Shown here piece by piece: positions 5,814-23,579 of a stretch of 64,000 nucleotides of DNA (its first letter is position 1; every line of letters starts with the position of its first letter). This stretch comes from Synergistaceae bacterium. Lineage in GTDB: Bacteria; Synergistota; Synergistia; Synergistales; Aminobacteriaceae. The notes beneath the pieces are model-generated. The model saw only the letters and a program-made list of their open reading frames with translations, did no database searches and was not told the origin of the DNA. The stretch spans positions 1 through 64,000 of the forward strand of contig JAFSXS010000068.1 in NCBI GenBank assembly GCA_017443945.1, given 5' to 3'. Made by a program: the position numbers and the translations under genes.

Positions 5814-5840
5814 ATTAAAATCTCCTAAAAGCACACAATT

Positions 5841-6947: not shown

Positions 6948-6959
6948 CTTTTACTCTCC

Positions 6960-7826
6960 TTAAACAATGCCTTCAGCGTATTGAAACCCGCCTTTAAACT
7001 TTTTGAAATCTTCAAATGACATGCTTTGAAGTGCTCCATCCGGATGACTGCCCATATTTGAATCAGAGAACCATACAACATTGTTAGCTGCGTCATAATG
7101 TTCAACATACACGCTATGGCCGTCAAAACGTACAACACAATTACCATTTTTTATATATTCAGGATCATAAACGTGTTTACCAAAAAACGGATATTGATCG
7201 CCGCCGTTAATTTCTAAATATCTTGCTCTTGCATAATAAACGCAATTAACGCGATTTTCTTTAGCCCAACCATTATATAATTCTCTCGTGTTTACGTTTA
7301 CAGAAGCATTTGAGCGGTTATAAGCTCCTGAAGACATATCCGGAGTATTATGCGAGAACGGCAAATTTTCAGTGTTCCAGCCCCATTTATCATTATCTGC
7401 CTGTGTTGCAACAGTACCGGAAGGCGGAGTATAACTCGAAGGATTTGCGTTATTGTTATTATTTGTGCCTGTTGTACCTGTAGTGCCTGAACTTGAAGCA
7501 CCGTTTGAGCTTGAAGAACTTGCGCCGGGATTCCCTAATGATGCAGCAAAGCGCGCTAACTCGTCTTCTTTCCATTCGTAATTATGCGCACTGTCTTCGA
7601 GAAAAGTTTTATAGTTCGTTAATATGCCGTTCATGGTCTTATATTCTTTATCCATGCCCAACATGTGTTGAGTCATTAACGACGGAATTTTTCCGCTGAA
7701 ATTTCTTCCCATATTCCTGAAGAGGTCAGTAACCATGTTTTGTTTCTCAAGAATATTTGTTGTATCTTGTCCGATTTTATTTGCCCTGTTGAGCATTTCG
7801 TCTGTAACAATCTGCATTTTTGGCAT
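6960..7826 (-). CDS. WXG100-like head fused to CHAP-type amidase/endopeptidase
   Basis: Predicted peptidoglycan amidase or endopeptidase. Residues 1-95 form a helical head with F43-S-G45 where WXG proteins have W-x-G. A Ser/Gly/Asn/Thr-rich linker spans about 98-140. Residues 150-288 look like a CHAP/NlpC-P60-type fold with Cys195 (NCVYYARARY) and His237 (GHSVYVEHYD) as the catalytic pair, and WFSDSN supplying a likely third residue. There is no signal peptide. A strong GGAGG site lies 9 bases before the ATG. Together with the lysozyme-type neighbour it would cut both the glycan and the peptide parts of the wall. No obvious immunity gene sits next to it. Confidence 0.87.
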   Translation of the reverse strand: MPKMQIVTDEMLNRANKIGQDTTNILEKQNMVTDLFRNMGRNFSGKIPSLMTQHMLGMDKEYKTMNGILTNYKTFLEDSAHNYEWKEDELARFAASLGNPGASSSSSNGASSSGTTGTTGTNNNNNANPSSYTPPSGTVATQADNDKWGWNTENLPFSHNTPDMSSGAYNRSNASVNVNTRELYNGWAKENRVNCVYYARARYLEINGGDQYPFFGKHVYDPEYIKNGNCVVRFDGHSVYVEHYDAANNVVWFSDSNMGSHPDGALQSMSFEDFKKFKGGFQYAEGIV

Positions 7827-7847
7827 GAGAAAATACCTCCTTCATAA

Positions 7848-8147
7848 TTACCAGCTGACATTATTTAGATCGCGTGCTGTCTGTGAATCAATTGCAACAC
7901 AGTCATCTACATATTTTTTCATAGCGTCCAGAGACTCTTTTACGCCCTGATTGAAAGTCTCGATCCTTTTTTGCGTTGAATTAAATTGTTCGGCGTACAT
8001 TTTTTGATCTTCTGCTTCCCATACTCCAGTCATGGAATTTATTGTGTTATTTATGTCGCTAAGAGAAGCGTTTTGTTCGTCAATGTACCTATTTGCGCTG
8101 TTAATGCTGTCTTGGATAGCCTGCACATTTATTATTGTAGCTGCCAT
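7848..8147 (-). CDS. WXG100-family protein with W-E-A in place of W-x-G
   Basis: Small helical-hairpin protein of 99 residues, the classic size of an ESAT-6/CFP-10 family member. W43-E-A45 occupies the turn position where the family normally has W-x-G. Two amphipathic helices flank it, rich in Asn, Gln and charged residues. Likely a secreted substrate or partner of the EssC-type ATPase encoded downstream in coordinates (9974-14542). A GGAGG-containing site precedes the ATG. It sits directly before the CHAP fusion gene and could act as its pairing partner, as WXG proteins form dimers; that pairing is inference. Confidence 0.85.
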   Translation of the reverse strand: MAATIINVQAIQDSINSANRYIDEQNASLSDINNTINSMTGVWEAEDQKMYAEQFNSTQKRIETFNQGVKESLDAMKKYVDDCVAIDSQTARDLNNVSW

Positions 8148-8165
8148 TATAAAACCTCCTGTTAT

Positions 8166-8504
8166 TTAGCCATTTCTGCCGCCTGAAGAATGACCGCGAT
8201 TAGCTATTTTTTGGGCGTACTCCCTGTCTATGCGCTGATATTTATTTACAACAGCACGAATATATTTCGCTGTCAAAGTGCACCGCTCTTCCCAAGTATT
8301 GAAATCTTTAGAAAGTTTAGAGTAAACCTCCTCAAGCGCTGTCAAAGTATCACCATGCATACGATTTGAATCAAGTTTTGCACGGTCTAAAAAACTGCGG
8401 GCCTCCTCAAGTTTTGCTCTTGCCAGCTCTATTTTCTTTGCGTCTGCTTCTGCTTCTGCCTCGTCGATAACAATTCTGCCGTTAGAATCTCTCAATTTAG
8501 CCAT
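8166..8504 (-). CDS. Small charged helical protein of the type VII-like locus
   Basis: Not assigned to a named family. The 112 residues are strongly helical and charged, with an alanine/glutamate-rich first helix (residues 14-45), M49-H-G51 at roughly the place of the WXG turn, and a second helix to about 102, ending in a Gly/Ser/Arg-rich tail. This layout suggests a divergent WXG100-type protein or a chaperone for one. AGGAGG lies 9 bases before the ATG, and the gene overlaps the end of the upstream gene by 8 bases, so it belongs to the same transcript. It lacks a tryptophan at the turn; the single Trp lies at about residue 71. Confidence 0.72.
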   Translation of the reverse strand: MAKLRDSNGRIVIDEAEAEADAKKIELARAKLEEARSFLDRAKLDSNRMHGDTLTALEEVYSKLSKDFNTWEERCTLTAKYIRAVVNKYQRIDREYAQKIANRGHSSGGRNG

Positions 8505-8931
8505 TTTCGTTTACCTCCTTTTGTGATGACTCATTAATTTTCGAGTCGATATAGTTATCAAGATTTTCTTTGCTCAGGAACCACGCCGCGAGAAGTTCAT
8601 CACCTGAACCGCGCTCTAATAACATGTAAAAATTTGATGCAGTATAAATAGTAGCGTAATAATTATTTACATCGATTACTTCACAGTTTTCAGGCTCGGC
8701 ACAAAACGCGGCACACGTGCATAATGAAGTATCAAGAGTTATCCCGTTACGCGCGCTCTCTGTCAGTAATTTCTTTTTCCGGAGGGTGCTTCTTGCTTCG
8801 TTGAGTTCCTGCTCAAATTTTGCATTATCTGCCGGAAAATCATAGACGATATTCACAAGCCGGCTTAATTGCAGCATTACGGCCGTATAAAATAATTCTT
8901 TCGCTGTTACACGCAAAAAATTGACTTCCAT
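8497..8931 (-). CDS. Accessory protein of the type VII-like locus with a four-Cys cluster, unknown function
   Basis: Not recognised. The 144-residue protein has a helical N-terminal half and a mixed C-terminal half. Four cysteines at residues 71, 73, 77 and 83 (C-x-C-x3-C-x5-C) could bind a metal or form disulfides. It has no signal peptide or membrane segment. I chose the ATG at 8931 because GGAGG lies 10 bases upstream; an earlier in-frame start at 8991 would place the ribosome site inside the gene. It lies between canonical WXG100 genes and WXG-like genes, a position suited to a substrate chaperone, but no similarity to a known chaperone is evident to me. Confidence 0.7.
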   Translation of the reverse strand: MEVNFLRVTAKELFYTAVMLQLSRLVNIVYDFPADNAKFEQELNEARSTLRKKKLLTESARNGITLDTSLCTCAAFCAEPENCEVIDVNNYYATIYTASNFYMLLERGSGDELLAAWFLSKENLDNYIDSKINESSQKEVNENG

Positions 8932-8991
8932 AAATATATAACCTCCATTTTTTATTGAGGGCAGAGAGTGAGTCCCCGCCCCTTGTAACAA

Positions 8992-9294
8992 TTACGCGCC
9001 TAATTTGCTGGCGATGCCCTTATTGCCCTGTTCAAGCTCTCTCATATCACCGGCATATTTCTGCATAAACTTTGCAAAGCTCTCCATATCCTGCGAAAAC
9101 TTATCGAATACAGTTCTCTTCTGATTGAAGCTATCAGTGAAAGCCTGCTGCGTTTCACCGTGCCAGTGCTCAATCAAGCCTGCTATAAGATTAGCGATTT
9201 GTTGAAACATGCTGTCAAGACTCGATTTCTGACCTAAAAGCTTTGTTGCTTCAGACTCTAAATTTTCAGGCGTTAAGAGAATATCAGCTGCCAT
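8992..9294 (-). CDS. Canonical WXG100 (ESAT-6-like) protein
   Basis: A 100-residue WXG100 protein, the secreted helical-hairpin substrate or co-substrate of type VII systems. W44-H-G46 lies between two amphipathic helices, followed by the usual aromatic pattern (QQAFTDSFNQKRTVFDKF). The C-terminal helix contains Y-x3-D/E-like spacing near its end (KYAGDMREL), as in secretion-signal helices. The ATG at 9294 lies 8 bases after AAGGAGG; an in-frame GTG at 9303 overlaps that site and is less likely. It is a paralogue of the next gene (9338-9628), sharing the W-H-G turn and LTPE/LTPQ N-terminus. Confidence 0.93.
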   Translation of the reverse strand: MAADILLTPENLESEATKLLGQKSSLDSMFQQIANLIAGLIEHWHGETQQAFTDSFNQKRTVFDKFSQDMESFAKFMQKYAGDMRELEQGNKGIASKLGA

Positions 9295-9337
9295 TAAATT
9301 CACCTCCTTTACTATTACGCAAAAAATGACACCATTA

Positions 9338-9628
9338 CTAGAAGTTCAAGCCAGATGTTGCACTAGCGTCGGCATTTTCCATAGCAGCAGCATAATTCTT
9401 CATGAATGTTGAAAAAGTGAGCATATCCTCAGCAAATTTGTCATAAACCTTTTTCTTCTCAGTAAAGCTGTTGACAAATGCTTGCTGTGCTTTACCATGC
9501 CAACCGCTTTGAAGCTCGTTAACAAGAGTTTGAATTTGATTGACGATTCCTGTCAGATTCTCTCTATGAGTGTCCATTTTGCCAGCTTCCGAATTCAGCA
9601 GTTGAGGTGTTAATTGAATCTCCGGCAT
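9338..9628 (-). CDS. Canonical WXG100 (ESAT-6-like) protein
   Basis: A 96-residue WXG100 protein with W43-H-G45 at the turn and two amphipathic helices. A strong GGAGG site lies 8-9 bases before the ATG. Closely related to the 8992-9294 protein (both have AQQAF/TQQAF after the turn, and KKVYDKFAEDM against KRTVFDKFSQDM), so the two could form a heterodimer or be alternative partners. It is the first WXG gene after the ATPase and ubiquitin-like genes, the usual order in type VIIb loci of Firmicutes in a shuffled form. Probably exported without a cleaved signal. Confidence 0.93.
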   Translation of the reverse strand: MPEIQLTPQLLNSEAGKMDTHRENLTGIVNQIQTLVNELQSGWHGKAQQAFVNSFTEKKKVYDKFAEDMLTFSTFMKNYAAAMENADASATSGLNF

Positions 9629-9709: not shown

Positions 9710-9973
9710 TTATTTCTTAGAGACATATAAACAGCTCCCCTCGTATGATCCTGCGCTGATTAAAGTCTCATCATCATGTAAAAAACGATTGTTGAACGCG
9801 ATATTATATTCATTCCATCCTGTAAAAATTCCCTCGTACATATTTCTAAGTATCTCCAAAATCTTATCTTTCAAGACATTAACAGGAACATCGGCCGGAA
9901 TTTCCATATCAACAAAAATATTTTTCTCGTAATATCCGATAGTAATAATCACTGTCTCAGGTTCTTTCGCCAT
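9710..9973 (-). CDS. YukD/EsaB-like ubiquitin-fold protein
   Basis: Small cytoplasmic protein of 87 residues with the beta-grasp pattern of the YukD/EsaB family, an accessory part of type VIIb secretion systems. Visible: an opening strand (ETVIITIGYY), a second strand with acidic residues (FVDMEIPADVPV), the long helix (VLKDKILEILRNMY) and closing strands (NIAFNNRFL, SCLYVSKK). It lacks a C-terminal Gly-Gly, as expected for YukD. The ATG follows the EssC stop directly (TAA then ATG), so it is co-translated with the ATPase. Families in Firmicutes use it to regulate secretion; the role here is inferred from that. Confidence 0.87.
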   Translation of the reverse strand: MAKEPETVIITIGYYEKNIFVDMEIPADVPVNVLKDKILEILRNMYEGIFTGWNEYNIAFNNRFLHDDETLISAGSYEGSCLYVSKK

Positions 9974-12900
9974 TTATTGAGCACCTGCCTTAGCAAATTT
10001 CAAAGCTGTAACTTTTCCGGCATGTATTAAGCAGCCTTCCGAGTCAGAAAAAATCATATCGGTTTCTTGATGCAGATTATTAAACGCTATATATTCATTA
10101 ATGCTGCCTCCTGCAATAAGGGCATTACCATTATTCAAGCAATTATTAAACGGTCTTATGCTGTCTTTAAACATGTTCAAGAACGCAAGATCTTCACTGC
10201 TGCTAAAAATGTATAAATGAATGTTGAAATCTGCCCCGCTGCGTGTGAGAGTTTCGAGAATGTCTGCGCTTTCCTGCGAGATTCCACGATAAAACCCGAG
10301 AAAATTATCAATACAGAAAATTATGCGCTGAAAATTAGTAGCTTCATCGTCATTACAGCGTCTGTCAAATTCATCGGCAATCTGTGAGATTAAAGCGTTT
10401 GCACCTTCAGAGTCATGAACGTAAATACAATCGGGATATAGAGATTTAATTTCGTCGCCTGTCTCGTAAATATAAACGCTGTTATCAAATTCGCGGGAGA
10501 CTGCATTTACTATCAGACTAAGCACATTTTTTATTGCCTCGCGTGATTTTCCTGAAATTATGCATGTGTTCATTTCTGAGAATACAAATTCAACGGGCTG
10601 CTTAGATATTTTATTTATGCCGATCTGGAAACTTTCGCCGCTGAAATTCAAATCGTCAATATTTATTTCTCTGTTTTCTGCTTCCTCTAGTGATGCATTT
10701 TCGCCGGACCATAAATTTTTCATTGATGTACATATCTCACGAAGATTTATAACGCGCTCGCCTTCTGTATTGCCTCGTACACATAAAGCTGTCTGAAATT
10801 CTAACGGCCCCTTTGTAAAACCTCTGCCCGGAAAGTGTCCCGGTTCTTGACGTGCTGAGCCTCCAACTAACGCGCGGTATTCTGTCGGGTCTGTGAGCTG
10901 CAGCGCATGTTTCGACTTTATAAATTGATCTATTCTGAACATTGAGCTGCCCGTACTGGTCAAAATTAAATAAATTCCGAGTCCTCCGCCTTCTCTAGCA
11001 ACTTTTATAATTGAGTCAAGCATGTCGGGATATTGAGTATTTAAGGCCGCGAGATTATCAACAGCAATTAACATAGCAGGGAGATTTTTGCCTGACACTT
11101 GTTGATAAGCGTCTAATGTTCCTACACCTTGTTCGGCGAAAAGACGTTTGCGTGAATCAATTTCGTTCAAGAAATAATTTTCTGCCTGCTGTAATTTCTC
11201 TTTATCGTTTGGATCTGCAACCATTAACATATGCGGCAAACCCTCAAAAATTTTCATTCCCCAGTTCCCGAAGTCAAAGACTAAAAATTGAAGCTGTGCC
11301 GGAGTATATGAAAACGCTGCTGAAAGTATCGCAGTCTGTAAAAATGTTGTTTTCCCCGATGAAGGCGCACCATATATAATTTGATGACCGTCTTTCATGA
11401 AGTCCAAGATAAAAGGCTCTTGACGCTGTTGTTCGGGATTATCAAGAAGTCCTACAATGAACGACAAGCCGCTATTAACTTCCTCCCATGCAGAATTATT
11501 AAACGCTAAATCTTTATAACGTTCATTCAGTAATGCTAAATCTAAAATTTCCGGTAATGCTTCAGTCCAAATCGGTTTTGCACGATGAATATTATTATTT
11601 GCCGACGTAGTATTTATATAATTAACAACTGCTTGACCTTCGCTGAATACATCGCCGAAAGGATTTACAGTTTTATCATATATTTCAGGGCTGACTCTTT
11701 CGCCGTTTATCTCAATTAAATTTATCTCTGACACCTGTTTATTATTTCCTTGCTCCGGATAATAGGGTGCTTTGCTGTAAAATGTTTGGACTTGTTCATA
11801 AACTTCATTATTGCCAACTTTTATATATGCTCGTCCGGGCAATGATATATGAAATGCGTCGGGAGTGCCTATCATGTCTTTGCTTTCTCCTACTTCTGCG
11901 GTTTTGAGGCATATTCTAAATTTTGTATTAGCTGACACTTGGCCTGCAACTATTCCGCCGGGTGATTGTGTAGCAAGTACCATGTATAAACCAAGACTGC
12001 GGCCGACTCGAGCGATAGAAATAAATTCTGCCATTTGGTCGGGAAATTGATTCTTAAATTCTGCAAACTCATCGACCACTACAAATAAATAAGGCATTGG
12101 CTCAAGATTTTTATCTGGGTGCTCCTTCTGATATTTCTGATATTCAAAAATTGCCTTTGTCGCTAAGTCTTCAGCACTCTCAAATAATCTCTGTCTGCGC
12201 GCGATTTCTCCTCGTAGTGAACGTAAACTCCTTTCAATGCTTGAAGCGTCTTGAAGATTACTGACTATACCGGCCACATGAGGAAGAGTCCGCAAAATAT
12301 TTGATAAATCATTGCCCTTAAACTCGATTAATAAAAAATTGACATCTTCAGGCGAAAAATGAACTGCTAACGATAACAGCCAAGTAGTGAGCATTTCACT
12401 TTTTCCGCTTCCTGATGTACCCGCTACAAGACCATGAGGCCCCATAAATTTTTCGTGAGCGTCGAACTCAAATATATCGCTATTTCCCTTAAATCCGATT
12501 GGTACTGCTAAACTTGCATAAGACTGGCTATTTTTCCAACGCTGCAATAAATTTATATCTTCTACTTTTGTTACTCCCAGCCCTTGAAGGAATAACGCTT
12601 TTGAAGGAATTGCACCAGAACGCCCTGATGTCTGAACTCGAACGGGTGCAAGCTGACGAGAAAAATTCTCTACCATATTTAATTGCGTGTATATGCTGTC
12701 TGGAATAAAAATTTTTCCGCTCTCATTTATTGAGGTCATTTGAATATTAGCATTAATCCCGTTCTGAATATCGCCGCAATTTATTATCGCGTTACATTCT
12801 TTGGGAAGTTTGCGAATATCGCCGTAAGCATATAATACAGCAAATCCAAGCGCAGAAGACTCCGGCAAAAACTGTTCTCCGCTGCTCTCTACTAAATTTT

Positions 12901-14542
12901 CATCAGCAAGAACAAGAAAATAAAAAGGTGTTTCCGGCAAACTATCGCGATTATTACCGGAATTATCACGCCTGCGAACCTTCAAAATTTCTGCGAGTTC
13001 TCGAAGTAATGTGCGTGCGGTCTTGTCCTGCCTCTTTTTCTTGCGCTGTTGTGTAGAAGAATCTTCCTTATTTTCAAGCGTACACGACATAAAACGCCGT
13101 GTTCTTTCTGAGTTCCACACATGAGGCAGCCAGCGAATCCACTCCCATTGCTCTTTTTCTCGTTCAGGGTAGATACACACAATTTTTACATCGTCATAAG
13201 AATGATGAGTCGCAATATTAATTAAAATTGTCCATGCAACTTTTTTCACGCTGTCCCGCGTTCCTTCAAGACCTGTGATAGGAGCTTCCATAAATGAATG
13301 ACATACAGGAATACCGCTTAAAATTTCGTGTCTAGCTTTTAATTTTGCTGCTTCCTTCAAAAAAGGGTTCTCCTCCAAAACGAGCTGCTCCTTAGGAATC
13401 TTTACATTCACATTTGAAGTAAATTCGCCCGTTCCAAGACGTATATTAAGAAAATCTGAATCATTTATAGTTCTTTCCCACAGACGGCGATCTCTATTTT
13501 TTGCTATAGAAATACACTCAAGTATGCCGGGATTAATCGAAGCTAAGACAGAAATATACTCGGTTTCGGATCTGATAATCTCAATTTCTTTCTCTATTAA
13601 ATGCTCATTATATTTTTTCTTAGCTAATTCTTGTATTTGCAGCCACTTCTTTTTTTGTCCTCTGTAATTAATTACGGCCATCATGATACTGACACTCGAC
13701 ATTGGAAGCGTGTACATTAACGTATGTGCGTTTTTCGTGAAAGCTGCTATACAAAGCATAATAGTAATCATCATACCGGGAGGCAGCAACACTGAAAGCC
13801 AAGATATTGACGGACGAGTCCCAGTATTAGGCGGTGCAAGGACTTCGATTTCTGTAGAGTTTACTGCTTTTCTTATTCTGGGTGATCTATAAAATAATGT
13901 CTGCGGCCTCTTAATATTGAAAGATGGCATAACTGCACGGAGAATAACAGCAGAAAATATTACATTGCCGGGCGTATTCCTGAATCTCAAAGTGTTATCT
14001 CTAAATTCAAGAATAAACCCGCCGATAAAAATTATTGCGCCGTCATTAAGCTCAACAGTAGAATTAATTAGCTTGCCATCAACAAAAATCCCGTTATGAC
14101 TGTTTTTATCTTTTATCGTCCATTTACCGTTATTTTTATGGAGGACGGCATGAGATGAAGAAACAAGCAAACCTTTTAGACAAATATCATTCTTTGAGGA
14201 TCTGCCTATTTTGATTTCATTTAGTCTGTTTAACGAAATGATGTTATCGCAATTACAGTAATTTTCTAATACAGCAAGACTTGTGCGTTCAGTGATAATT
14301 ACGTTGTCGCCTGCTGATAATATTCTGTTTACTGCTTTATGTCCCATTATAGTAAATGGAGTCTTTGAGAAAATATTTATGCTATCATCCGTAGCTCGAA
14401 AAATTAAATGATTATCTTCAAGACTATTATCCGGCAAATGAATCGTGTCATTTTCTCCTGTGCCCACACTAACACGATCACCCTTTGCAAGCGATTTTTC
14501 TCTGATTTCATCATTTGTGTAAAAAACTAGCAAATAATTCAT
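9974..14542 (-). CDS. essC: EssC-type FtsK/SpoIIIE ATPase with two N-terminal FHA domains (type VII secretion motor)
   Basis: Inner-membrane motor that drives export of WXG substrates. At 1522 residues it matches the EssC length. Two FHA-like domains occupy about 1-95 and 105-180; the second has GRSSKNDICL and SSHAVLHK with Ser and His positions of a phosphothreonine-binding site. Two membrane segments lie at about 250-296. Three ATPase modules follow: module 1 with GTSGSGKS (about 707-714) and VVVDEFAEF (about 820-828); module 2 with GAPSSGKT (about 1058-1065) and AVDNLAAL; module 3 degenerate around 1327, with no full P-loop Lys-Thr but FCIDNF retained. AGGAG lies 6 bases before the ATG. 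EssA, EssB and EsaA homologues are not seen nearby. Confidence 0.95.
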   Translation of the reverse strand: MNYLLVFYTNDEIREKSLAKGDRVSVGTGENDTIHLPDNSLEDNHLIFRATDDSINIFSKTPFTIMGHKAVNRILSAGDNVIITERTSLAVLENYCNCDNIISLNRLNEIKIGRSSKNDICLKGLLVSSSHAVLHKNNGKWTIKDKNSHNGIFVDGKLINSTVELNDGAIIFIGGFILEFRDNTLRFRNTPGNVIFSAVILRAVMPSFNIKRPQTLFYRSPRIRKAVNSTEIEVLAPPNTGTRPSISWLSVLLPPGMMITIMLCIAAFTKNAHTLMYTLPMSSVSIMMAVINYRGQKKKWLQIQELAKKKYNEHLIEKEIEIIRSETEYISVLASINPGILECISIAKNRDRRLWERTINDSDFLNIRLGTGEFTSNVNVKIPKEQLVLEENPFLKEAAKLKARHEILSGIPVCHSFMEAPITGLEGTRDSVKKVAWTILINIATHHSYDDVKIVCIYPEREKEQWEWIRWLPHVWNSERTRRFMSCTLENKEDSSTQQRKKKRQDKTARTLLRELAEILKVRRRDNSGNNRDSLPETPFYFLVLADENLVESSGEQFLPESSALGFAVLYAYGDIRKLPKECNAIINCGDIQNGINANIQMTSINESGKIFIPDSIYTQLNMVENFSRQLAPVRVQTSGRSGAIPSKALFLQGLGVTKVEDINLLQRWKNSQSYASLAVPIGFKGNSDIFEFDAHEKFMGPHGLVAGTSGSGKSEMLTTWLLSLAVHFSPEDVNFLLIEFKGNDLSNILRTLPHVAGIVSNLQDASSIERSLRSLRGEIARRQRLFESAEDLATKAIFEYQKYQKEHPDKNLEPMPYLFVVVDEFAEFKNQFPDQMAEFISIARVGRSLGLYMVLATQSPGGIVAGQVSANTKFRICLKTAEVGESKDMIGTPDAFHISLPGRAYIKVGNNEVYEQVQTFYSKAPYYPEQGNNKQVSEINLIEINGERVSPEIYDKTVNPFGDVFSEGQAVVNYINTTSANNNIHRAKPIWTEALPEILDLALLNERYKDLAFNNSAWEEVNSGLSFIVGLLDNPEQQRQEPFILDFMKDGHQIIYGAPSSGKTTFLQTAILSAAFSYTPAQLQFLVFDFGNWGMKIFEGLPHMLMVADPNDKEKLQQAENYFLNEIDSRKRLFAEQGVGTLDAYQQVSGKNLPAMLIAVDNLAALNTQYPDMLDSIIKVAREGGGLGIYLILTSTGSSMFRIDQFIKSKHALQLTDPTEYRALVGGSARQEPGHFPGRGFTKGPLEFQTALCVRGNTEGERVINLREICTSMKNLWSGENASLEEAENREINIDDLNFSGESFQIGINKISKQPVEFVFSEMNTCIISGKSREAIKNVLSLIVNAVSREFDNSVYIYETGDEIKSLYPDCIYVHDSEGANALISQIADEFDRRCNDDEATNFQRIIFCIDNFLGFYRGISQESADILETLTRSGADFNIHLYIFSSSEDLAFLNMFKDSIRPFNNCLNNGNALIAGGSINEYIAFNNLHQETDMIFSDSEGCLIHAGKVTALKFAKAGAQ

Positions 14543-14561: not shown

Positions 14562-15671
14562 TTAGTGTCGTCTAAAGAATTTGAATACAATTAATCCGCC
14601 TACGAGGACAACTCCTCCGCCTATAAGACCTAAATTACACCCGCCGAGAAGCATAAGAAGAATCCTGAGAACATAAACAGTTAAGCTCTTGCCTGCTGAT
14701 AAAAACATTGTCGCTAAAAATTGTTTCGGCAGTGTATCAAGCTCTACTCCGAAAAAGTCGCTGACCTCAAATGCGCCTGTGATTCCGTTGATTATCGGCA
14801 TAAAACCGAAGGCCGTTTTTACTCCTTTCATAGAAGCAATATTAACGAAGTCAGAATCTTCCGCATAGAATAATCTTAAATCGTTAACACTTTTACCGAC
14901 TAAATCATCAGGGACAGTAACTTGGAAAACGTACCAGCCGTCTTCAGATACATTAATTGTGTTGAGTTTGGCTGCAAATTCATAGCCGTTATCGCTGACT
15001 TCTTTTCTCATTGCGTTGGTAGGTTCTGGAGGAATGGCGGTTGAAAAATCTCTGCTGGTCAAAAAGTGAAGCTCGCTAACGCCAATGTTGATGTTATTTG
15101 CGATGCGCTCGAGAACGTCATCACTTAACACAACAGGGGTGATTACGCCTACGTTTAATTCTGTTGTTGATGAATCTGTGTCGGGTGTAGGTGTAGGAGT
15201 GGGATAATTATTTATACGTTCTCGATTATAAATATAGCCATTATATTGAGCAGGAGCTATCAGAGAATCGCCTACTGCATTTCCATTAGAATCTAAGTCA
15301 ATTGCAATGATTGATAATCCTAGACTATATGAATCTGGGTGAAGAGTCCCTGTTATTGTTGCTGTATTGCCTGAATGTGAAAAATTAAGCGTGCTAATAT
15401 GCTGCATTTCTTGACCATTTGCCCCAGCTTGATCAAAAGATACAGGCAAACGCCAGTCTACTACACTACCCACTAAATCACTAGCTGTTAATGTAAAACT
15501 AAAATTTTCGTTACCATTAACCCACATTACATTTTTAATATCGCCATAGTCAGCAATTGCATGACTGCTGTTAGTAACAGTAAGGGTCATTGCAAATACT
15601 TTGCAGTTTCCTTCAAATAGGAAAATAAGAACACTTACGACTAAAGCAAAAAATTTCTTTCTATTTGACAT
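14562..15671 (-). CDS. Exported protein with Synergist-type C-terminal sorting tail
   Basis: Unknown function. Residues 1-27 form a signal peptide (basic start, long hydrophobic core, AxA-like NCKVFAM region). The ectodomain is Ser/Thr/Asn-rich and beta-type, with a proline-threonine linker at about 160-170. The final 30 residues read as Gly-Gly-Cys-Asn, a hydrophobic run and F-F-R-R-H. That is the layout of the proposed Synerg-CTERM protein-sorting signal, in which the Cys is thought to be the processed residue. An extra hydrophobic stretch precedes it. The ATG at 15671 is preferred over GTG at 15680, which has only 3 bases to AAAGG. It lies just upstream of essC and may be a surface or anchor component. 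Both links are inference. Confidence 0.75.
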   Translation of the reverse strand: MSNRKKFFALVVSVLIFLFEGNCKVFAMTLTVTNSSHAIADYGDIKNVMWVNGNENFSFTLTASDLVGSVVDWRLPVSFDQAGANGQEMQHISTLNFSHSGNTATITGTLHPDSYSLGLSIIAIDLDSNGNAVGDSLIAPAQYNGYIYNRERINNYPTPTPTPDTDSSTTELNVGVITPVVLSDDVLERIANNINIGVSELHFLTSRDFSTAIPPEPTNAMRKEVSDNGYEFAAKLNTINVSEDGWYVFQVTVPDDLVGKSVNDLRLFYAEDSDFVNIASMKGVKTAFGFMPIINGITGAFEVSDFFGVELDTLPKQFLATMFLSAGKSLTVYVLRILLMLLGGCNLGLIGGGVVLVGGLIVFKFFRRH

Positions 15672-15697
15672 CTTTAACACGTACCTTTCTGAAAATA

Positions 15698-16633
15698 TTA
15701 TTTCTTCTTCCCGCTTGAACCCGAGAAAAATTTTTGCTTAATGAGAGTATCAGCCTCTTGCTGCGTTATAGGCTGTACCCTGTTCCCCTTGCGAAGACTT
15801 GAGCTTTTGCCGCCGTTCTTAATAATTTGTGCGGTGCTGAAATCTTCTTGAACGTCCGTAATTTTCAAGATAGCGAGGATAGTTCTTTTCTTGCCCATTG
15901 ATGTGCCGTCTAGATTTATCATTTCTCTCCCTTCTGAATAGACTTGAAATAACATTCCGGGAGTTATCCCCCAGTTTTTACCCGCATTTATGGCTATTTC
16001 TTTTGCGGCGATATTTATAACTTGAACAGAGTCACCCGCAAATTTTTCACGAATCCTGAACACAGCCCGCGATATTGCTTCGGTTATTGCTGCCATCTCA
16101 AGGCCGGAAAAATCATTATTCTTCGTCTGGAATCCATAGAAATTAAAGCCTGACTCTTTGCCCGACGAGCTGCCGTTTTCTGACAATGTGTAAATAACTT
16201 TGCTTGTTTCAACGTCGACAATGCGCACATCAATAGTAACTGTGATTGCTTGACGAGTCTCACTTATAAGCCATAAATCTGTCGTTTTAGTCTTCTTGCT
16301 CATATTAGTAACTGCACCCATAAGCATGTATTTGCAGCTTATAATTTTTCCTAGTTGAATTACTTCATCATCTTTAAAGCGTCCTGACTGGGCAAATTGA
16401 TATTCTTTCGCTAGTTCATCAAATCTATCACGTTCAACAACCGTAATAGAGCTTGATTGATTGAGCATTCGTGTAAAAATATCTCCGATTGCTTCGGCTT
16501 GTTTATCGCTGACTCCTTCTGCACGACTCAAAAATTTAACGATCCCGAGCCTGATTCCTGCACCGTCTTGGGCATAAATAACTTGAGCCGGCCACATAAC
16601 TAATATCAACAGCAAAAATATAATTTTCTTCAT
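15698..16633 (-). CDS. CsgG-family secreted protein, paralogue 1
   Basis: Periplasmic or outer-membrane protein of the CsgG/FlgT-M fold group. A signal peptide (residues 1-21, ending IYAQ) has no lipobox Cys, unlike lipoprotein CsgG. Residues 27-205 carry the family pattern: GIVKFLSRAEG, AIGDIFTRML, VVERDRFDELAKE, IQLGKIISCKYMLMGAVT and DVRIVDVETSKVIYT. A C-terminal beta domain (about 210-300) reads INAGKNWGITPGMLFQVYSEG and LKITDVQEDFSTAQII, as in the FlgT C-terminal domain. It is separated by 4 bases from paralogue 2. CsgG itself forms an outer-membrane secretion ring; whether these do is inference. Confidence 0.85.
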   Translation of the reverse strand: MKKIIFLLLILVMWPAQVIYAQDGAGIRLGIVKFLSRAEGVSDKQAEAIGDIFTRMLNQSSSITVVERDRFDELAKEYQFAQSGRFKDDEVIQLGKIISCKYMLMGAVTNMSKKTKTTDLWLISETRQAITVTIDVRIVDVETSKVIYTLSENGSSSGKESGFNFYGFQTKNNDFSGLEMAAITEAISRAVFRIREKFAGDSVQVINIAAKEIAINAGKNWGITPGMLFQVYSEGREMINLDGTSMGKKRTILAILKITDVQEDFSTAQIIKNGGKSSSLRKGNRVQPITQQEADTLIKQKFFSGSSGKKK

Positions 16634-16637
16634 GAGT

Positions 16638-17624
16638 CTATTCTCCTATTCGTTGTGAGGCTAAATTAATTTTCTCGGCTTCAGAAAACGATATTGCTTC
16701 GATTTTGTCTCCCTCGCGTATTAAAACCGGTACAGTTTTTTGCGGAACTCTTGAAGATTTTGACGGCTTTTTTCCTTGCTGCTGAGTCTGTTTGTCATTT
16801 CCTGCAAAAATTTCAACGGTGCTGAATGCGTTATTGACATTGACGACGCGTAATATAGTGAGATTGATAACTTTTTTCCCTAAAGATTTCCCGTTTAAGT
16901 CAAAAATTTCTTGGCCGTCCTGATAGACTTTATATAAGGAGCCTATATTTACACCTGACGAGCTGCCCCGATTAATGCGAATATTATTTTTGCTGATTGA
17001 AATTATTTCGGCGGACTCATTTGCAAGTAATGCCCTAATATTATCGCAAAGTCTTGTAGCTGCTGACTGTATAGCGTTCCTTATTAATTTATCAATGGAG
17101 TAATTTTTGTCCTTACTCGAAATTATTGCACTACCGCTCTTAGAGAACGATAACACAACTTGACCGGTTGCAGTGTTGATTAATCTTGCTTCTAAATGTG
17201 CTGAGGCCTCCTGCATTTGGCTGTCCTGCTCATAATATGTGTCAAATAAAAAACGTGATGCCTTGCGAATATCTAAATATCGTTGAGTAATCTGCGTGAT
17301 TGATCCCAGCAAAATATATTTACACGAAGCAAGCTGCGCTATTTTTACTGCTGAAGCCTGATTTAGTCTTCCGGCATTAAAGCCCTGCTCCATAGCTATA
17401 ACGCTGAGTCTTTCGCGCTCAAATACAGAAATCGACGGCGACGAATTAAGAACGCTTATTATCATATCAGTAATAAAAGATGTCTGCTCTTCGTTGACTT
17501 CATTTGTTTTGCTGGAGAACGGCATAACAGCGAGTCTAACTTGTTCGGCAGCGTTTACAGATATTGCCGTCATAAAGAATATAGAAAGAGTCAGACATAA
17601 CAAAAATTTTTTACTGGTCATCAT
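16638..17624 (-). CDS. CsgG-family secreted protein, paralogue 2
   Basis: Same architecture as the 15698-16633 protein. Signal peptide at residues 1-25 (ending VNAA). CsgG-like core: RLAVMPFSSKTNEVN, VFERERLSVIAMEQGF, KIAQLASCKYILLGSIT, LEARLINTATGQVVLSF. C-terminal domain: INRGSSSGVNIGSLYKVYQDG and LRVVNVNNAFSTVEIF, followed by a basic, Gln/Lys/Ser-rich stretch and a short EGDKIEAIS strand. The start ATG overlaps the stop of the upstream 796-residue gene (TAATG), so translation is coupled; a second ATG directly after it has better spacing to AAGGGG. No lipobox is present. Confidence 0.84.
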   Translation of the reverse strand: MMTSKKFLLCLTLSIFFMTAISVNAAEQVRLAVMPFSSKTNEVNEEQTSFITDMIISVLNSSPSISVFERERLSVIAMEQGFNAGRLNQASAVKIAQLASCKYILLGSITQITQRYLDIRKASRFLFDTYYEQDSQMQEASAHLEARLINTATGQVVLSFSKSGSAIISSKDKNYSIDKLIRNAIQSAATRLCDNIRALLANESAEIISISKNNIRINRGSSSGVNIGSLYKVYQDGQEIFDLNGKSLGKKVINLTILRVVNVNNAFSTVEIFAGNDKQTQQQGKKPSKSSRVPQKTVPVLIREGDKIEAISFSEAEKINLASQRIGE

Positions 17625-20014
17625 TAATTCCCCTTGTCAATTTTTTCGATTAAGTCTTTTGCCGGTTTATAATTTGGATTTGCAAAAAGTGCTTTAGAAG
17701 CCCATTCTCTAGCCTCTATATACATTGACTGATCGAGGGCATATTTTCCGGTGTTATAAGCTGCGAGATAATCATTTATATTTGCGTCAGAAATTTTCTT
17801 GTAGGCCTCATATTTATTTTTTGCGCTGCTTGCTTTCGAGGCTTTGACGTGAGCATTTATTAAAGATTTCTCCTCGTTGGGCTTGAGTCCGTAAGTCTTG
17901 ATAACTTTTTTCGGATCTGTCGAGGCATTTTCGAGTCGTTTTTTGCGGCCTGTTCCTGATGAAAGACTTTCAAGCGAGACATTATCTTTATTACGTTCTT
18001 GAGCCTGTAAACGTTTTTGATTCTTTATGTGCCAGATTCCGCGCTGAAAATCGCTGTGTAAAACCGGTTCTAATCTGCTGCCTACTGCCGGCGAATAAGG
18101 GTCATAAATAGATTTTGCAATTTCTGCCGTACTGAAAGACTCTTGAACGTCCTTAATTGAAATTATTGCTTCAGTGTCGCCGCCCGATTGGTCTTCAGAG
18201 TAAACGCAGAATAAATCATCAACTTGAATCCCTGATGATGAACCGCGATTAATAATAATTTCTCCGTCATTTACTGATGTAATTTGCACGAGTTCATTTG
18301 CGAGGACTTCTCTAATTCGCTGGCCTAAATTTGCAGCTGTTGAGGCTATTGCACGATTGCTTAAATCACCGTAATTTGCTTCGACGTGCTTTATTTGTCC
18401 GTTTCCGTCCTGAGTTATTACGTCAGATTGTGCAGCACTTCCCTTCACAGATACTGCAATTATTTGACTCGTTTGAACGTTTATTAATCTTGCGTCAATT
18501 TCTGTTATGACCTCATGAGTCTCTATTACAATATTTTCTTTCTGAGCTTCAGAATTTTTTGCAATTAGGGCTATAATTTCGAGTCCTAATAATACACCTG
18601 CTGCTTTACTGCTCATGTTCGCAGTATTATAACGTGAAAAATTTGCGCTTTCCGTCGGTCTTATATAACGTCCTGAAACTGTATCACGCTCTTCACAGCC
18701 TGTAACGGAACCGATTAATATATATTGACAACTTGCTAATTTTCCGATTTGTGCTGCTGTGGCCGGGTCAATAAGTCCTGAAAGATTTAATTTGTGCTCG
18801 CGTGCTATTGCGTTGAGCTGGCTGCGTTCAAGGACTGCGATTTTATCAGAATTTGCTAACATTCGTGATAATAAATCAGAAAGTGTTGACGCTCCTTTTT
18901 GCGGGATTCCTGCTGCTTTGCTGTCAAAATTTACGACTCCGACTCTTATCATTCCCGGAGGTAGTGCCGGAATAGGTTCAACATTTGCGGGGGCTTGTGA
19001 TGATGAAGGAGCTGCAGCAATTTCCGGGCGTTTATCTGGGAAACTGAATTTATTTGATAAATAATTATCAACGATCATATTATTAACCGGACGCAAAATA
19101 TCGTCAGGGCGAAGAGTACTGATATTTCCCAAATTTGAATATATTTCTGCTGTGCTTGAATTTTTCTGTACGGATTTAATAACTATTATTGCAAGATTAC
19201 TGCTCTGCAGATTTTCCCCGAAAATGTCATTAACTTCTTCATTATTGAGCATAACAAAAAATTTATCGCCTGCACTCATGAATGAGTCCGAGCCTTTATT
19301 TATAGTTATATTATCTCCGTCAACACTTAATATTTTGGGATAATCTTCCGTAATTTCATAGCGGAAATATTGTAACGCCTTATTGAACGCTAATAAAGCC
19401 GCATGCTCTCTTGCTGACTGCTCGTTTGTTGATGAGTCTTTGCTGCCCCTGCTGCCTTTACCTCTTTGCGGTTTGACTGCGGACAATGGAACTTTTACAT
19501 CCGAGAATATCTCAAAATTTCTATCGCTTATTACTTCATTTATAGAAAAATTAACAGTTGCTTCGACATCACTTTTTGATGAATTCTTAAAAATTATGTG
19601 TCCTCGAAAAATATAGTTATATTTGTTACGGCGGGCGGCATTCCTGAGCTGGTCCATATGCATCTTCATGGCTTCTTGCTGAGTTTTCGGTGACGTTGTC
19701 AGCGTCTCTGTTATGCTTCGTCTATATAAATTTCTTCCCGATAACTGATAATCAACCACTTCAAGTTGCAGATTTCCACCCTCGAAACCGTTTGTTTTCG
19801 ACAATAGGTCAATGAACATTTTTTTATATTTCTTCGAGTTTTTTTGCTGAACAGAAGCTACTGAGAAAGTAGAATGCTTAGATATATCTGTCTCAGGAGA
19901 AGAGAACCAGAAATCTTCTACTCCTATGCGGATATTAGAATCAGCTGCCAAAACTTCAACACAGCACAATAATAATATTGCAATTACACTTAATGCCGAC
20001 TTAAAAATTTTCAT
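17624..20014 (-). CDS. Large CsgG-family secreted protein with duplicated C-terminal-type domains and TPR-like tail
   Basis: The longest paralogue, 796 residues. Signal peptide at 1-23 (ending VLAA). Residues 25-330 form a first unit ending in a FlgT-C-like domain (INKGSDSFMSAGDKFFVML, then VIKSVQKNSSTAEIYS). A second, more typical CsgG-like unit starts at about 355 (MIRVGVVNFDSKAAG, AVLERSQLNAIAREHKLN, QIGKLASCQYILIGSVTG, DARLINVQTSQIIAVS) and ends in INRGSSSGIQVDDLFCVY and IKDVQESFSTAEIA. About 730-796 contains helical TPR-like pairs (AAYNTGKYALDQSMYIEARE, ALFANPNYKPAKDLI). This looks like an internal duplication or fusion of two paralogues. Its start overlaps the end of the 20014-20985 gene by one base. 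Confidence 0.82.
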   Translation of the reverse strand: MKIFKSALSVIAILLLCCVEVLAADSNIRIGVEDFWFSSPETDISKHSTFSVASVQQKNSKKYKKMFIDLLSKTNGFEGGNLQLEVVDYQLSGRNLYRRSITETLTTSPKTQQEAMKMHMDQLRNAARRNKYNYIFRGHIIFKNSSKSDVEATVNFSINEVISDRNFEIFSDVKVPLSAVKPQRGKGSRGSKDSSTNEQSAREHAALLAFNKALQYFRYEITEDYPKILSVDGDNITINKGSDSFMSAGDKFFVMLNNEEVNDIFGENLQSSNLAIIVIKSVQKNSSTAEIYSNLGNISTLRPDDILRPVNNMIVDNYLSNKFSFPDKRPEIAAAPSSSQAPANVEPIPALPPGMIRVGVVNFDSKAAGIPQKGASTLSDLLSRMLANSDKIAVLERSQLNAIAREHKLNLSGLIDPATAAQIGKLASCQYILIGSVTGCEERDTVSGRYIRPTESANFSRYNTANMSSKAAGVLLGLEIIALIAKNSEAQKENIVIETHEVITEIDARLINVQTSQIIAVSVKGSAAQSDVITQDGNGQIKHVEANYGDLSNRAIASTAANLGQRIREVLANELVQITSVNDGEIIINRGSSSGIQVDDLFCVYSEDQSGGDTEAIISIKDVQESFSTAEIAKSIYDPYSPAVGSRLEPVLHSDFQRGIWHIKNQKRLQAQERNKDNVSLESLSSGTGRKKRLENASTDPKKVIKTYGLKPNEEKSLINAHVKASKASSAKNKYEAYKKISDANINDYLAAYNTGKYALDQSMYIEAREWASKALFANPNYKPAKDLIEKIDKGN

Positions 20015-20985
20015 TAAAACATTCTCCTTTTCTTGATAAAATCTTTATTGTCAATAATTAACTGCGCTTCTTCCGGTGTAATCTGCTCGGCCTTGTCTCC
20101 TGTTCTGATATTTGCTGCTGTGCCTCCTGTAATATTTGCTACACTGCTGTTAGTCCGCGAGCTTGTTACTTCAGCAACGGCAATATTAAATTTTTCCCGG
20201 CCAAGTGAATTATTGCCAGAGTCAAATATTTCTTCTCCCTCGTAAAAAATTTTGTAAAAAGTTTTCCCGCCGACTCCTGAGTCAGAGCCTTTATTAATTG
20301 TTACGGTGCTTGGAGCTGAATTTGTCTTCCTGCCTCTTCTTGCAGGGGGAGCAGCTTTTATATTTATAACTTCGGGATATTCGCCAGTCAGGAACGCACA
20401 AATTTTTTCGGCGGCCATTGATGACGCAGAATCAAACGCAATTTTTCTGATATTCTCTAAATCGTCGATCATTTTCTGCTTGCCTTCTTTAGTGGCGTTA
20501 AGTCTAATTGCCTCCTTATTGCTGATGGTATATGAGCCCCTGCCGACTCCGGAGACAGACAAAACAATTTTCCCCGTCTCTGCTTCTATGAGCCTTACTG
20601 ATATATTCATTATTTGAATGTGCTCTGTTGCAACAGGCGCGTCATACAATAATCCAGGTTTACTAATCATCATGAAGTCTGATTTATCGCTGATTATTGC
20701 GCCTAGAACTACATATTTGCAGCCTTCCGACCTGCCTGCATTTGCTGCCGACTCCGCCGTTAATGAATTGAGATTCTGAAAACTTTTGCTCGTTGACACA
20801 TTTATATTGCTTGAATATGAATCTAAAATGTTCATAAATTTTTCTGTTATTTCACGCGGGACTGTATAATTTTTCCCGGAAGTCTTATCAACAAAATCAG
20901 CTACTCCGATTCGAACAGGACTCGCCTCAGCTGACGAAATTATTATCAACGTCGAGAAAATGAAAGCTGCTAAAAATTTTTTCAT
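20014..20985 (-). CDS. CsgG-family secreted protein, paralogue 4
   Basis: 323 residues with a signal peptide (1-21, AEAS). CsgG-like core: VRIGVADFVDKTSGKN, FMNILDSYSSNINVSTSKSF in place of the usual VVERERL, GRSEGCKYVVLGAIIS, SVRLIEAETGKIVLSVSG. C-terminal FlgT-C-like domain: VTINKGSDSGVGGKTFYKIF and AEVTSSRTNSSVANITGG. The segment between has an Arg-rich stretch (PPARRGRKTNS) marking the linker. The divergence in the 'ERE' region suggests a separate role from the other copies. The gene overlaps its downstream neighbour by one base and starts 12 bases after the preceding stop. Confidence 0.82.
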   Translation of the reverse strand: MKKFLAAFIFSTLIIISSAEASPVRIGVADFVDKTSGKNYTVPREITEKFMNILDSYSSNINVSTSKSFQNLNSLTAESAANAGRSEGCKYVVLGAIISDKSDFMMISKPGLLYDAPVATEHIQIMNISVRLIEAETGKIVLSVSGVGRGSYTISNKEAIRLNATKEGKQKMIDDLENIRKIAFDSASSMAAEKICAFLTGEYPEVINIKAAPPARRGRKTNSAPSTVTINKGSDSGVGGKTFYKIFYEGEEIFDSGNNSLGREKFNIAVAEVTSSRTNSSVANITGGTAANIRTGDKAEQITPEEAQLIIDNKDFIKKRRMF

Positions 20986-20997
20986 GTTAGCTGCCTC

Positions 20998-21603
20998 CTA
21001 CTCCCAATTTATAGCCTTTATCGCGCTGACATGCTGCATTACTGCCTCACGAGTCGCCAAAGCCAGAATCCCGCCGTGAGTCTTATTTACGCTTCCTACA
21101 AAAAATTCTTTGAATGATAGTCCGCTGCTTTTACCTGTTTGCTTTGCTTGGCCTTGTTTCACGGAACTGTATACAATCTTGCTAGTTGTGTTACTTATTA
21201 TGCGGATGTCTAAATTAACATATGCTGTTTTTGCATCTGCTGTGCTGCCGATAATTATTGAGAAACCGCTTTTTTTCTCGTTGTAGTAATAAAGCGTGAT
21301 TGCTCCCGTTATTGTGTATTGCGCGCTGTGAACTTTGCCGAGCTCTAAAACCATTGACGGATCTACTAAACCCGATTGACTAAGCTCTATCTCTTCGGCG
21401 ATGTACTTAAATTTTTCACGTTCGACGAGTTCAAACACTCCCGATTTATCAAGCTCGGTAACAAACATATCCATAACTGCGCCTGCGGGTGCGTCTTGCT
21501 CCTGCGTCCTGTCTTCAAATGCTCTGACGGCGACTCGAGGCTTTGACTCTGCTGTCCCGGTAAAAATCGTCGTAAAGATTAATATTATTGCAGCAATCCT
21601 CAT
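20998..21603 (-). CDS. Short CsgG-family secreted protein (core domain only)
   Basis: A 201-residue member with a signal peptide (1-19) and the core domain only: RVAVRAFEDRTQEQDAP, VFELVEREKFKYIAEEIELS, LELGKVHSAQYTITGAITL and LDIRIISNTTSKIVYSS. It lacks the C-terminal INRGSSSG-type domain seen in its neighbours, so it is closest in length to a minimal CsgG-like subunit. A glycine-rich AGGAGG site precedes the ATG at 21603. The Gly residues and the amphipathic GSTADAKTAYVNLDIRI region resemble CsgG strands, but a transmembrane barrel hairpin cannot be confirmed by eye. Confidence 0.83.
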   Translation of the reverse strand: MRIAAIILIFTTIFTGTAESKPRVAVRAFEDRTQEQDAPAGAVMDMFVTELDKSGVFELVEREKFKYIAEEIELSQSGLVDPSMVLELGKVHSAQYTITGAITLYYYNEKKSGFSIIIGSTADAKTAYVNLDIRIISNTTSKIVYSSVKQGQAKQTGKSSGLSFKEFFVGSVNKTHGGILALATREAVMQHVSAIKAINWE

Positions 21604-21629
21604 GTAATAACCTCCTAAAGATTTAGAGT

Positions 21630-22154
21630 TCAGAATAATTGATTCATTCCGATTTTGACTGCTTCATCGACGGCCTTTCTTGTTGCTTCTGCTTCGGTGT
21701 AGCCGACTTGCTTGCTTGATGCATTTTCCCCGCCGAATTTGACTCCGTTAGATTTTGCAACCGTGATTGATACTGACGCTGTAGCAGTAAAAAGTTTAAA
21801 GCTGTTCTCCCGTGCTTGTTCCGGAGTAATCGTCGCTATAATTGTTGCTGCAACACTATATCTTGCGTTAATGCTCAAAATTTTATGTTTCTCGCCGTAT
21901 AAAATATATTTGTTCGCGAGTGCTTGTGCTGCTGCCCGGCGAATACTTTTCATTTTTGCTTCATCAACGACTCTGTAACCCCTGTTTCGCAGCATGTTAA
22001 TAATGAAAGTTTCTACGCGTTTTGCATGTTCCGCAGGCCCCTCAACAAGTAAAGCTATATCGCCGCGCTTGGGTAAAATGTCGGATCCATAGACGTTATC
22101 AGCGCTCATTACACAAAGAATAATAATAAATGCTCGAAAAATTTTGCTTATCAT
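21630..22154 (-). CDS. Secreted protein of the CsgG/FlgT-like cluster, unknown function
   Basis: About 174 residues with a signal peptide (MISKIFRAFIIILCVMSADN, cleaved near VYGS). The mature part has a strand ALLVEGPAEHAKRVETFI, a RNRGYRVVDEAKMKSI helix that recalls FlgT/LPP20-type domains, KYILYGEK (the same 'KYxLxG' strand seen in the CsgG-like neighbours) and a TEAEATRKAVDEAVKIGMNQLF C-terminal helix typical of FlgT-like proteins. I chose the ATG at 22154 because it overlaps the stop of the upstream gene (TAATG) with GGGGG 8 bases away; the ATG at 22160 leaves only 2 bases. Confidence 0.75.
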   Translation of the reverse strand: MISKIFRAFIIILCVMSADNVYGSDILPKRGDIALLVEGPAEHAKRVETFIINMLRNRGYRVVDEAKMKSIRRAAAQALANKYILYGEKHKILSINARYSVAATIIATITPEQARENSFKLFTATASVSITVAKSNGVKFGGENASSKQVGYTEAEATRKAVDEAVKIGMNQLF

Positions 22155-23579
22155 TACCATAACCCCCTATGTTTAACAGCTTCTTGAATGAGCCTGCCGC
22201 TTACAAAATTTGGTGAGACACTCTCTATTGTGATATTGTTTCCTTCGAGAAATGCTGCCGTGCTCTTTGCAAATTCCTCATTATTTACTGTGTTGGGAAG
22301 ATTTATAATTAATTCAAGCGTTTTTTCTTGATATCTTGCGCTTGTTACTCCGTTTGAGGACTGGACAAAATTTTTCAGGAGCGACTCAATTTCTCCAGAC
22401 TTACTGAACGAAGGCACGTCCAAAATTTTCACGTTTATAATATTATTCCGCGCTATATTGACAACTGCTTTATTTGCCGTAACCGCGTCTATAGACCAAT
22501 TTGTTAAAGCCGTTACAGTGAAACCATGTCCGGATAAAAACGAGGCCGCCTCCCTTGCTGTGTGCTTGGAAGTAAATACTATTTCCAATAAATTATCTTT
22601 GTAGGAACGCTCGAAAATTTCTCCTGATCTGCCGGCTAACTCTCTAAGCTCAGACTCAATCCTTGCGACATCATCAAATAAAACATTGGACAATTTTATA
22701 TTTATCGTTATGTCGTTATTGCTTGAACCTGTTACTAATGCAGCAGCAATCTTATAAATTATTTGTCCCGCAGCTTTATTCGCACTCGGAGTCAAACACC
22801 TTGCAGCACCCTCACCAAGTGAACCGGCCGGCCTTCTTCCTGTCGAAGCTGAAAATTTCCCCGATGAGATTTCCTGCGACGTGTCTGTGATTATTGCTCT
22901 TAACTCAACAGAACCGCTCACACCGTAAAAAGATGTTCCATAAAGTTTTCTCGTTGCAAATGCAGCTGCTGACGAGTTCGCTATTATTATTGCGTCTGCC
23001 CGTAACGTTCGCGCCATGTCATAAAGTTTTGCTGTGTCGTCCAAGGCTTTGAACGCTTCAAGATTCGTAACCGGACGCGCCATATCAGGTGTAACGATTG
23101 TATATCCGGCTTTCTCTAAGACACGTTTTATTTCTTTGCGGGCGATTGATGAGGATGAATTTTTTCCGCCGATTTTCTCGTTGACGATTAATAATATTCT
23201 GGGATTATCTAAAGTTTTTATCAGTGCAGGGCCGACGATTTTATTTATTGCGCTCTCGTCAAATTTGCATGTACCCGTTACATAAAATTTTTTGTCCTGT
23301 ATAAATTCTTGTGTTACTATAAAACTTTTAACGGGGGGGGGGGGCACTGTATTTGACTGACTTTACAAATTCAGCAAAAATTTTTTCCATTGCATTACGA
23401 CTCGCGGCTGTTTTTGCTTTTGTCCGGGCTGCGTTCTTGTTTTTTCCGTTATAGTCAGCTGCTCCGATGCAATTTTCGACAATGTATAAACCGTTTTCGA
23501 GTCTAACAGAGGCAGCAGAAATTTTCGGCGCAATTAAATACAACATAATCAAGAAAAATAAAAGTATCCTGCTCTTCAT
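22154..23579 (-). CDS. FlgT-like secreted protein, reading frame split at a poly-C(12) tract
   Basis: Two open frames (23328-23579 and 22154-23347) join as one gene when the homopolymer length changes. Part 1 has a signal peptide (ending ISAA) and a FlgT N-terminal-like stretch (GAADYNGKNKNAARTKAKTA, then SRNAMEKIFAEFVKSV). It runs into Ala-Pro-Pro-Pro, then a stop. Part 2 continues in another frame with VKSFIVTQEF, VTGTCKFDESAINKIV, a strand-helix core (PRILLIVNEKIG) and two roughly 75-residue repeats at its C-terminus. The coding strand has 12 C; 11 or 14 would restore one frame of about 475 residues. Current state: off, unless part 2 starts at GTG 23347 without a signal peptide. Sequencing error is possible. 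Confidence 0.78.
23333..23344 (+). repeat. Poly-G(12) homopolymer (poly-C in the coding strand)
   Basis: Twelve consecutive G on the plus strand inside the FlgT-like gene, placed after the predicted signal peptide and first domain. It is by far the longest G/C homopolymer in this AT-rich window. Slipped-strand mispairing at such tracts is an established mechanism of phase variation in surface and secreted proteins. Only lengths equal to 2 modulo 3 (11, 14) join the two halves of the gene. Assembly error at homopolymers is the main alternative. Confidence 0.9.

Follow-up and report, generated by a model that had tools for sequence, protein, structure and literature searches.

A conserved operon joins a CsgG/FlgT-family envelope module to the type VII secretion system in the diderm phylum Synergistota

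Introduction

Even in mycobacteria, the route by which substrates of type VII secretion systems (T7SS) pass the outer membrane is still an unanswered question. The same question is posed by a Synergistaceae genome (a Synergistota assembly of 2.4 Mb, GCA_017443945.1), on whose contig JAFSXS010000068.1 an array of genes at 14562-23579, all on the minus strand, leads head to tail into essC (9974-14542); positions throughout are those of the window, the whole stretch of 64,000 nucleotides that was analyzed. The original prediction, correct in coordinates, strand and the neighboring essC, had read this array as seven genes for CsgG-like secreted proteins that could provide the T7SS with hetero-oligomeric outer-membrane channels.

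In the portion of Garrett et al. 2024 (PMC11217815) on which we draw, T7SSa to T7SSj are reported in Bacillota and Actinomycetota only, and CsgG/FlgT-family proteins are not described for any of them. The open-access literature, preprints being outside its scope, yielded no report joining a T7SS with Synergistota or, in a relevant way, with CsgG.

Results

The window carries an FHA-EssC locus

The product of essC scored 967 bits against TIGR03928 (cut-off, 778 bits) and contains FHA and FtsK_SpoIIIE domains. It is followed on the minus strand by a YukD/EsaB-like ubiquitin-fold protein (9710-9973; PF08817, 2.2e-5, just below the cut-off) and by two WXG100 proteins within 8992-9628, one matching PF06013 with 43.5 bits (8992-9303) and the other being its paralogue (9338-9628; phmmer, 69 bits). 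By sequence, essC is thus a genuine FHA-EssC with YukD and WXG100 neighbors, and the two general marks of a T7SS, an EccC/EssC ATPase and a WXG100 protein, are both present. Small helical partners and candidate substrates fill 4767-8991, with a sub-threshold WXG100 match in 7848-8147. Putative substrates with helical N termini lie at 5841-6947 and 6960-7826, and the former contains a phage tail lysozyme domain (Phage_lysozyme2, 6.6e-30), so that peptidoglycan may be a target of the system or an obstacle that it has to open. The row ends with a PP2C phosphatase (3964-4788; PP2C_2, 7.6e-13) and a Ser/Thr kinase with membrane helices (2045-3964; Pkinase, 1.1e-40), both of whose genes are kept in many other T7SS loci.

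Comparison with described subtypes placed the locus close to two of them. With T7SSb (the Ess/Yuk system of Bacillota) it has in common an EssC above the TIGR03928 cut-off, YukD and WXG100 proteins. T7SSb membership by defining parts was rejected, since YukC/EssB (PF10140) was found in 0 of 19 EssC genomes and EsaA (TIGR03929) in 0 of 10, with a positive Bacillus subtilis control. The likeness to T7SSe as described by Garrett et al. 2024 (PMC11217815) comprises FHA-EssC, the YukD-like protein (slightly below the cut-off), two WXG100 proteins, the membrane kinase and a PPM phosphatase.

As for the envelope, Omp85 is present in the window's genome, which is consistent with a diderm cell. The Pfam model of LptD gave no match in this genome, and LPS is hence left without support from this marker. 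A profile scan of contigs with EssC yielded one relative, a roe deer rumen genome of the Synergistaceae; its contig breaks off within essC. In another genome (G048, L052:13952-15457), a second, partial essC stands straight after a full-length one.

The array comprises five CsgG-type genes and three other genes

Using the curated Pfam cut-offs (20.8 bits for CsgG, PF03783; 27 bits for FlgT_C), we found the CsgG domain above threshold in four ORFs with 57 to 99.5 bits. The highest score was that of a short protein, CsgG-S (20998-21603; 99.5 bits), followed by CsgG-L (15698-16633; 69.5 bits), in which the CsgG domain precedes an FlgT_C domain of 31.3 bits. The other two are a long paralogue (17624-20014; 63 bits) and a shorter one (16638-17624; 57 bits), both with FlgT_C-like domains at sub-threshold scores. 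A fifth, diverged paralogue with a long tree branch (20014-20985) reached 16.2 bits, below the cut-off. The array foreseen from the sequence is therefore real, with five CsgG-type members instead of seven, and its INRGSSSG-type C-terminal domain corresponds to FlgT_C, above the cut-off in CsgG-L only.

The remaining genes differ. The secreted protein c176 (21630-22160), whose HMM family adjoins LipL or CsgG genes in most module loci, and the main part of a LipL46-like periplasmic protein (22154-23347) are not CsgG proteins by Pfam; they have a related domain in common according to the HMMs, the c176 model scoring 118 bits inside the LipL46-like protein. The NCBIfam LipL46 model matched the latter weakly (2.9e-6), and LipL gave no informative match against Pfam and PDB. 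A C12 tract (23333-23344, coding strand; within 23328-23362) shifts the reading frame of the LipL46-like gene, which is the operon's first module gene, and the N-terminal part of this gene, with the signal peptide and the first ~60 residues, lies out of frame with the remainder at 23328-23579, where phmmer aligned it with the N termini of single-ORF homologues elsewhere. The reading frame of its homologue in the relative G061 is likewise interrupted, there at 10 consecutive G in a different position (L051:3237-3246), and poly-C runs of at least 12 are numerous across the window's genome. The first gene of the operon may be phase variable through such frameshifts, or the homopolymer run may have been misassembled.

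The gene next to essC (14562-15680) encodes a secreted protein without Pfam or NCBIfam match, neither CsgG-like nor related to its CsgG-type neighbors, and is an optional member of the operon. The protein ends in a GGCN...hydrophobic...RRH membrane anchor, which resembles Synergist-CTERM. Variable surface-type genes occupy the same place between CsgG-L and essC in G061 (L051:10994-12607) and G054 (L050:8987-12685); the three products measure 372 (window), 537 and 1232 amino acids, the longer ones having a GLUG motif (G061) or Ig-like repeats (G054), and they may be comparable to the Ig-like TsdI/TseI proteins.

The three extra CsgG paralogues by which the window's module is enlarged were found only here and in G061 (L051), where the homologues of 17624-20014 and 16638-17624 scored 709 and 302 bits and the diverged paralogue also has a counterpart. 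Most relatives carry one copy each of CsgG-S and CsgG-L, the two core CsgG-type proteins of the module, which rules against hetero-oligomeric channels built from seven paralogues as a general feature.

EssC is always accompanied by the module

We searched 188 Synergistota genomes with an EssC profile. Seventeen scored above the cut-off and another 6 had a split or incomplete gene; these 23 EssC genomes span two families and at least seven genera. LipL, c176, CsgG-S and CsgG-L were defined as the module, three of these families being modeled as HMMs from the fetched EssC loci. Among the 20 readable EssC loci (the other three contigs end inside essC), every one had at least one module gene upstream of essC on the same strand. 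The gap between the last gene and essC, measured in 19 loci, was 0 to 41 bp with a median of 4 bp, one pair overlapping by one base; in one locus (L048 of G096), other ORFs lie between module and essC. CsgG genes were present at 18 of the 20 loci, 17 times upstream and once downstream of the kinase gene (G077). The EssC locus of G145 has LipL and c176 alone, with the CsgG genes on another contig, and G085 is similar.

Across the phylum, CsgG was detected in 109 of the 188 genomes and LipL in 79. All 23 EssC genomes possess LipL, versus 56 of the 165 without EssC (Fisher test, 2.5e-10, kinship ignored), and within the window's genus the figures are 14 of 14 versus 12 of 29 (1.2e-4, kinship again ignored). 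In many EssC genomes (13 by reading of loci), no LipL was found besides the one at the T7SS locus. Separate occurrence of the two blocks in most relatives had been named at the outset as evidence against the link. The dependence proved one-sided: EssC was not found apart from the module, and the module was found without EssC in the 56 genomes just mentioned.

The module genes also diverge together with EssC. Pairwise EssC distances, at identities of 36 to 83%, correlated with those of CsgG-S (r = 0.62), CsgG-L (0.59), LipL (0.80) and c176 (0.83), and none of 2000 Mantel permutations reached the observed r. When 70 CsgG domains were placed in a tree, the T7-linked copies were clustered, with 11 changes versus 21.8 after shuffling, and did not form one clade. 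Within the window's genus, T7-linked CsgG-S forms one clade (starred), with four later escapes as fusions. Members of families f1 and f8 are intermingled in the EssC tree, which makes some transfer of the block likely.

A conserved operon therefore joins a CsgG/FlgT-family envelope module to the T7SS in a diderm phylum; its genes and their families, conserved order, near-zero spacing, correlated divergence and one-sided co-occurrence are all read directly from the genomes.

The module also occurs alone

Modules without EssC have the same gene order, a secreted protein of ~280 to 317 residues being followed by LipL, c176, CsgG-S and CsgG-L, and they reach the edge of the phylum. The window's genome itself holds a second copy, lacking CsgG-S, on contig C86 (L070). 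The module thus either predates the T7SS or is of more general use, its origin is not T7SS-specific, and neither, given the standalone modules and the L070 copy, is its basic function. The standalone module probably serves another purpose, and a general ring complex taken into use by the T7SS fits the one-sided dependence best. A looser hint comes from G073, which has no EssC, and where CsgG-S and CsgG-L stand beside a T7SS-type PP2C gene (L089).

In L067, L069 and L073 (G060, G063 and G054, respectively), a CsgG-S domain ends long proteins of 423 to 816 amino acids with Sel1-type-like repeats. These fusions derive in the tree from T7-linked CsgG-S, and those of G060 and G063 adjoin genes resembling an RND efflux pair.

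CsgG-S resembles CsgG and CsgG-L resembles FlgT

CsgG and FlgT both form rings, and curli CsgG is a lipoprotein. In profile searches of PDB, CsgG-S retrieved CsgG (1.5e-7), followed by LpoB at chance level, and CsgG-L likewise retrieved CsgG (1.2e-7). The AlphaFold2 model of CsgG-S had a pLDDT of 81 and a pTM of 0.75, with hairpin tips near pLDDT 50; that of CsgG-L had 87 and 0.81, with a long first hairpin at residues 101-139. Foldseek gave only CsgG as best matches of CsgG-S (8e-10), then PelC, GNA1162 and FlgT, and for CsgG-L it gave FlgT (4e-17) before CsgG (1e-8); the TM-scores were moderate, 0.34 to 0.61.

The loop of hairpin 1, compared by length only and not as a sign of membrane insertion, has 25 to 30 residues in 48 CsgG-S proteins and 24 to 42 (median, 27) in CsgG-L; it has 30 in Escherichia coli CsgG and is absent in LpoB. 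The CsgG-S hairpin tip (residues 111-124) carries almost no charge, and its alternate positions 114, 116 and 118 are hydrophobic in all sequences; the hairpin of the window's CsgG-L is rather polar, more so than that of CsgG-S. A lipobox was recognized by pattern in 1 of 46 CsgG-S and 3 of 71 CsgG-L proteins. Membrane hairpins and ring interfaces had been put forward as what the structures should reveal; fold and profile lead to CsgG and FlgT with a first hairpin of CsgG length, and on the other side stand the low-confidence tips of CsgG-S and the scarcity of the lipobox. A CsgG-type barrel in the case of CsgG-S and an FlgT-like ring in that of CsgG-L would both agree with the models.

Relative to curli CsgG (PDB 4uv2, 4uv3 and 6si7), CsgG-S belongs to the same Pfam family and has it as best PDB profile and fold match, with a first hairpin loop of ~28 residues and a shorter second hairpin. 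Unlike curli CsgG, CsgG-S and CsgG-L mostly miss the lipobox, and their module is linked to a T7SS. Lipoprotein targeting of the CsgG kind was rejected for this reason, as was assignment to the curli system, CsgF being found in 0 of 10 EssC genomes. CsgG-L shares with FlgT, the H-ring protein of the Vibrio flagellum (PDB 3w1e and 8z5n), a CsgG/FlgT_M-like domain followed by FlgT_C. It differs in its place in T7SS or standalone operons instead of among flagellar genes, and its whole-query TM-score to FlgT is only 0.34 to 0.38.

Discussion

The locus is best read, in our view, as one long operon for a diderm T7SS; at its head stands an envelope module, present at most EssC loci of the phylum, that on balance probably gives the substrates an outer-membrane exit. 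Passage through the inner membrane would be powered by EssC, both for the WXG100 proteins and for the larger helical substrates. At the outer membrane, CsgG-S would assemble into a CsgG-type ring; the periplasmic rings or collars would consist of CsgG-L, c176 and the LipL46-like protein, and together with the CsgG-S ring they would make up the exit. Ring formation, membrane insertion and the passage of T7SS substrates are what we infer here from families, folds and gene order. Whether the whole amounts to a Synergistota subtype of the T7SS, in which a dedicated outer-membrane and periplasmic ring module of the CsgG/FlgT family adapts the system to two membranes and gives it an outer-membrane exit of its own, we regard as evenly balanced. 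We count against the exit the modules without EssC, the L070 copy, the CsgG genes located off the EssC locus in G145 and G085 and the mostly absent lipobox, together with the uncertain CsgG-S tips, the polar CsgG-L hairpin and the undetected LptD.

The strongest rival is an envelope scaffold. In it, CsgG, FlgT, c176 and LipL proteins form rings, periplasmic or associated with the outer membrane, that support the T7SS and clear a way through peptidoglycan, the outer-membrane pore being a different protein. Such roles have parallels: FlgT supports the basal body of the flagellum, LpoB switches on a peptidoglycan synthase, and PelC encircles the barrel of another protein. The scaffold would account for FlgT as the nearest fold of CsgG-L, for the barrel-less PelC, GNA1162 and LpoB in the fold family, for the rarity of the lipobox and for a candidate substrate with a lysozyme domain at the locus. 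CsgG-S, however, has CsgG itself as its closest match and retains the first hairpin, which LpoB is without, and no other outer-membrane protein was recognized in the conserved part of the operon, so that we consider the scaffold rather unlikely.

The wide occurrence of the module without EssC raises a further alternative, namely, that it is independent, exports or assembles something else, such as the anchored surface protein of 14562-15680, and is merely co-regulated with the T7SS. The window, G061 and G054 do have a gene for an anchored protein of this type separating the module from essC, but the standalone modules that we examined showed no such gene beside them; moreover, the module is never missing from EssC genomes, across several genera and two families, and its divergence follows that of EssC. 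These data make mere cohabitation of the operon improbable. A neighborhood due to history, in which essC was inserted next to the module once, in an ancestor, and the pair was then passed on vertically or by block transfer with no functional tie, is very improbable, since order and near-zero spacing were kept despite EssC divergence to 36% identity and a partial rearrangement retained the CsgG pair in the locus (G077), even though EssC-module pairs could pass on as one block and the mixing of f1 and f8 in the EssC tree makes transfer likely.

Apart from the exit, the loci indicate that EssC, YukD and WXG100 proteins can work, or at least persist, without detectable EssB or EsaA. The operon of EssC and CsgG/FlgT-family genes in a diderm gut lineage, preferably read as the source of an outer-membrane exit, supplies named, testable candidates for that exit. 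The T7SS is a machine known from mostly single-membrane bacteria, and the linkage described here suggests how it could be fitted to an outer membrane.
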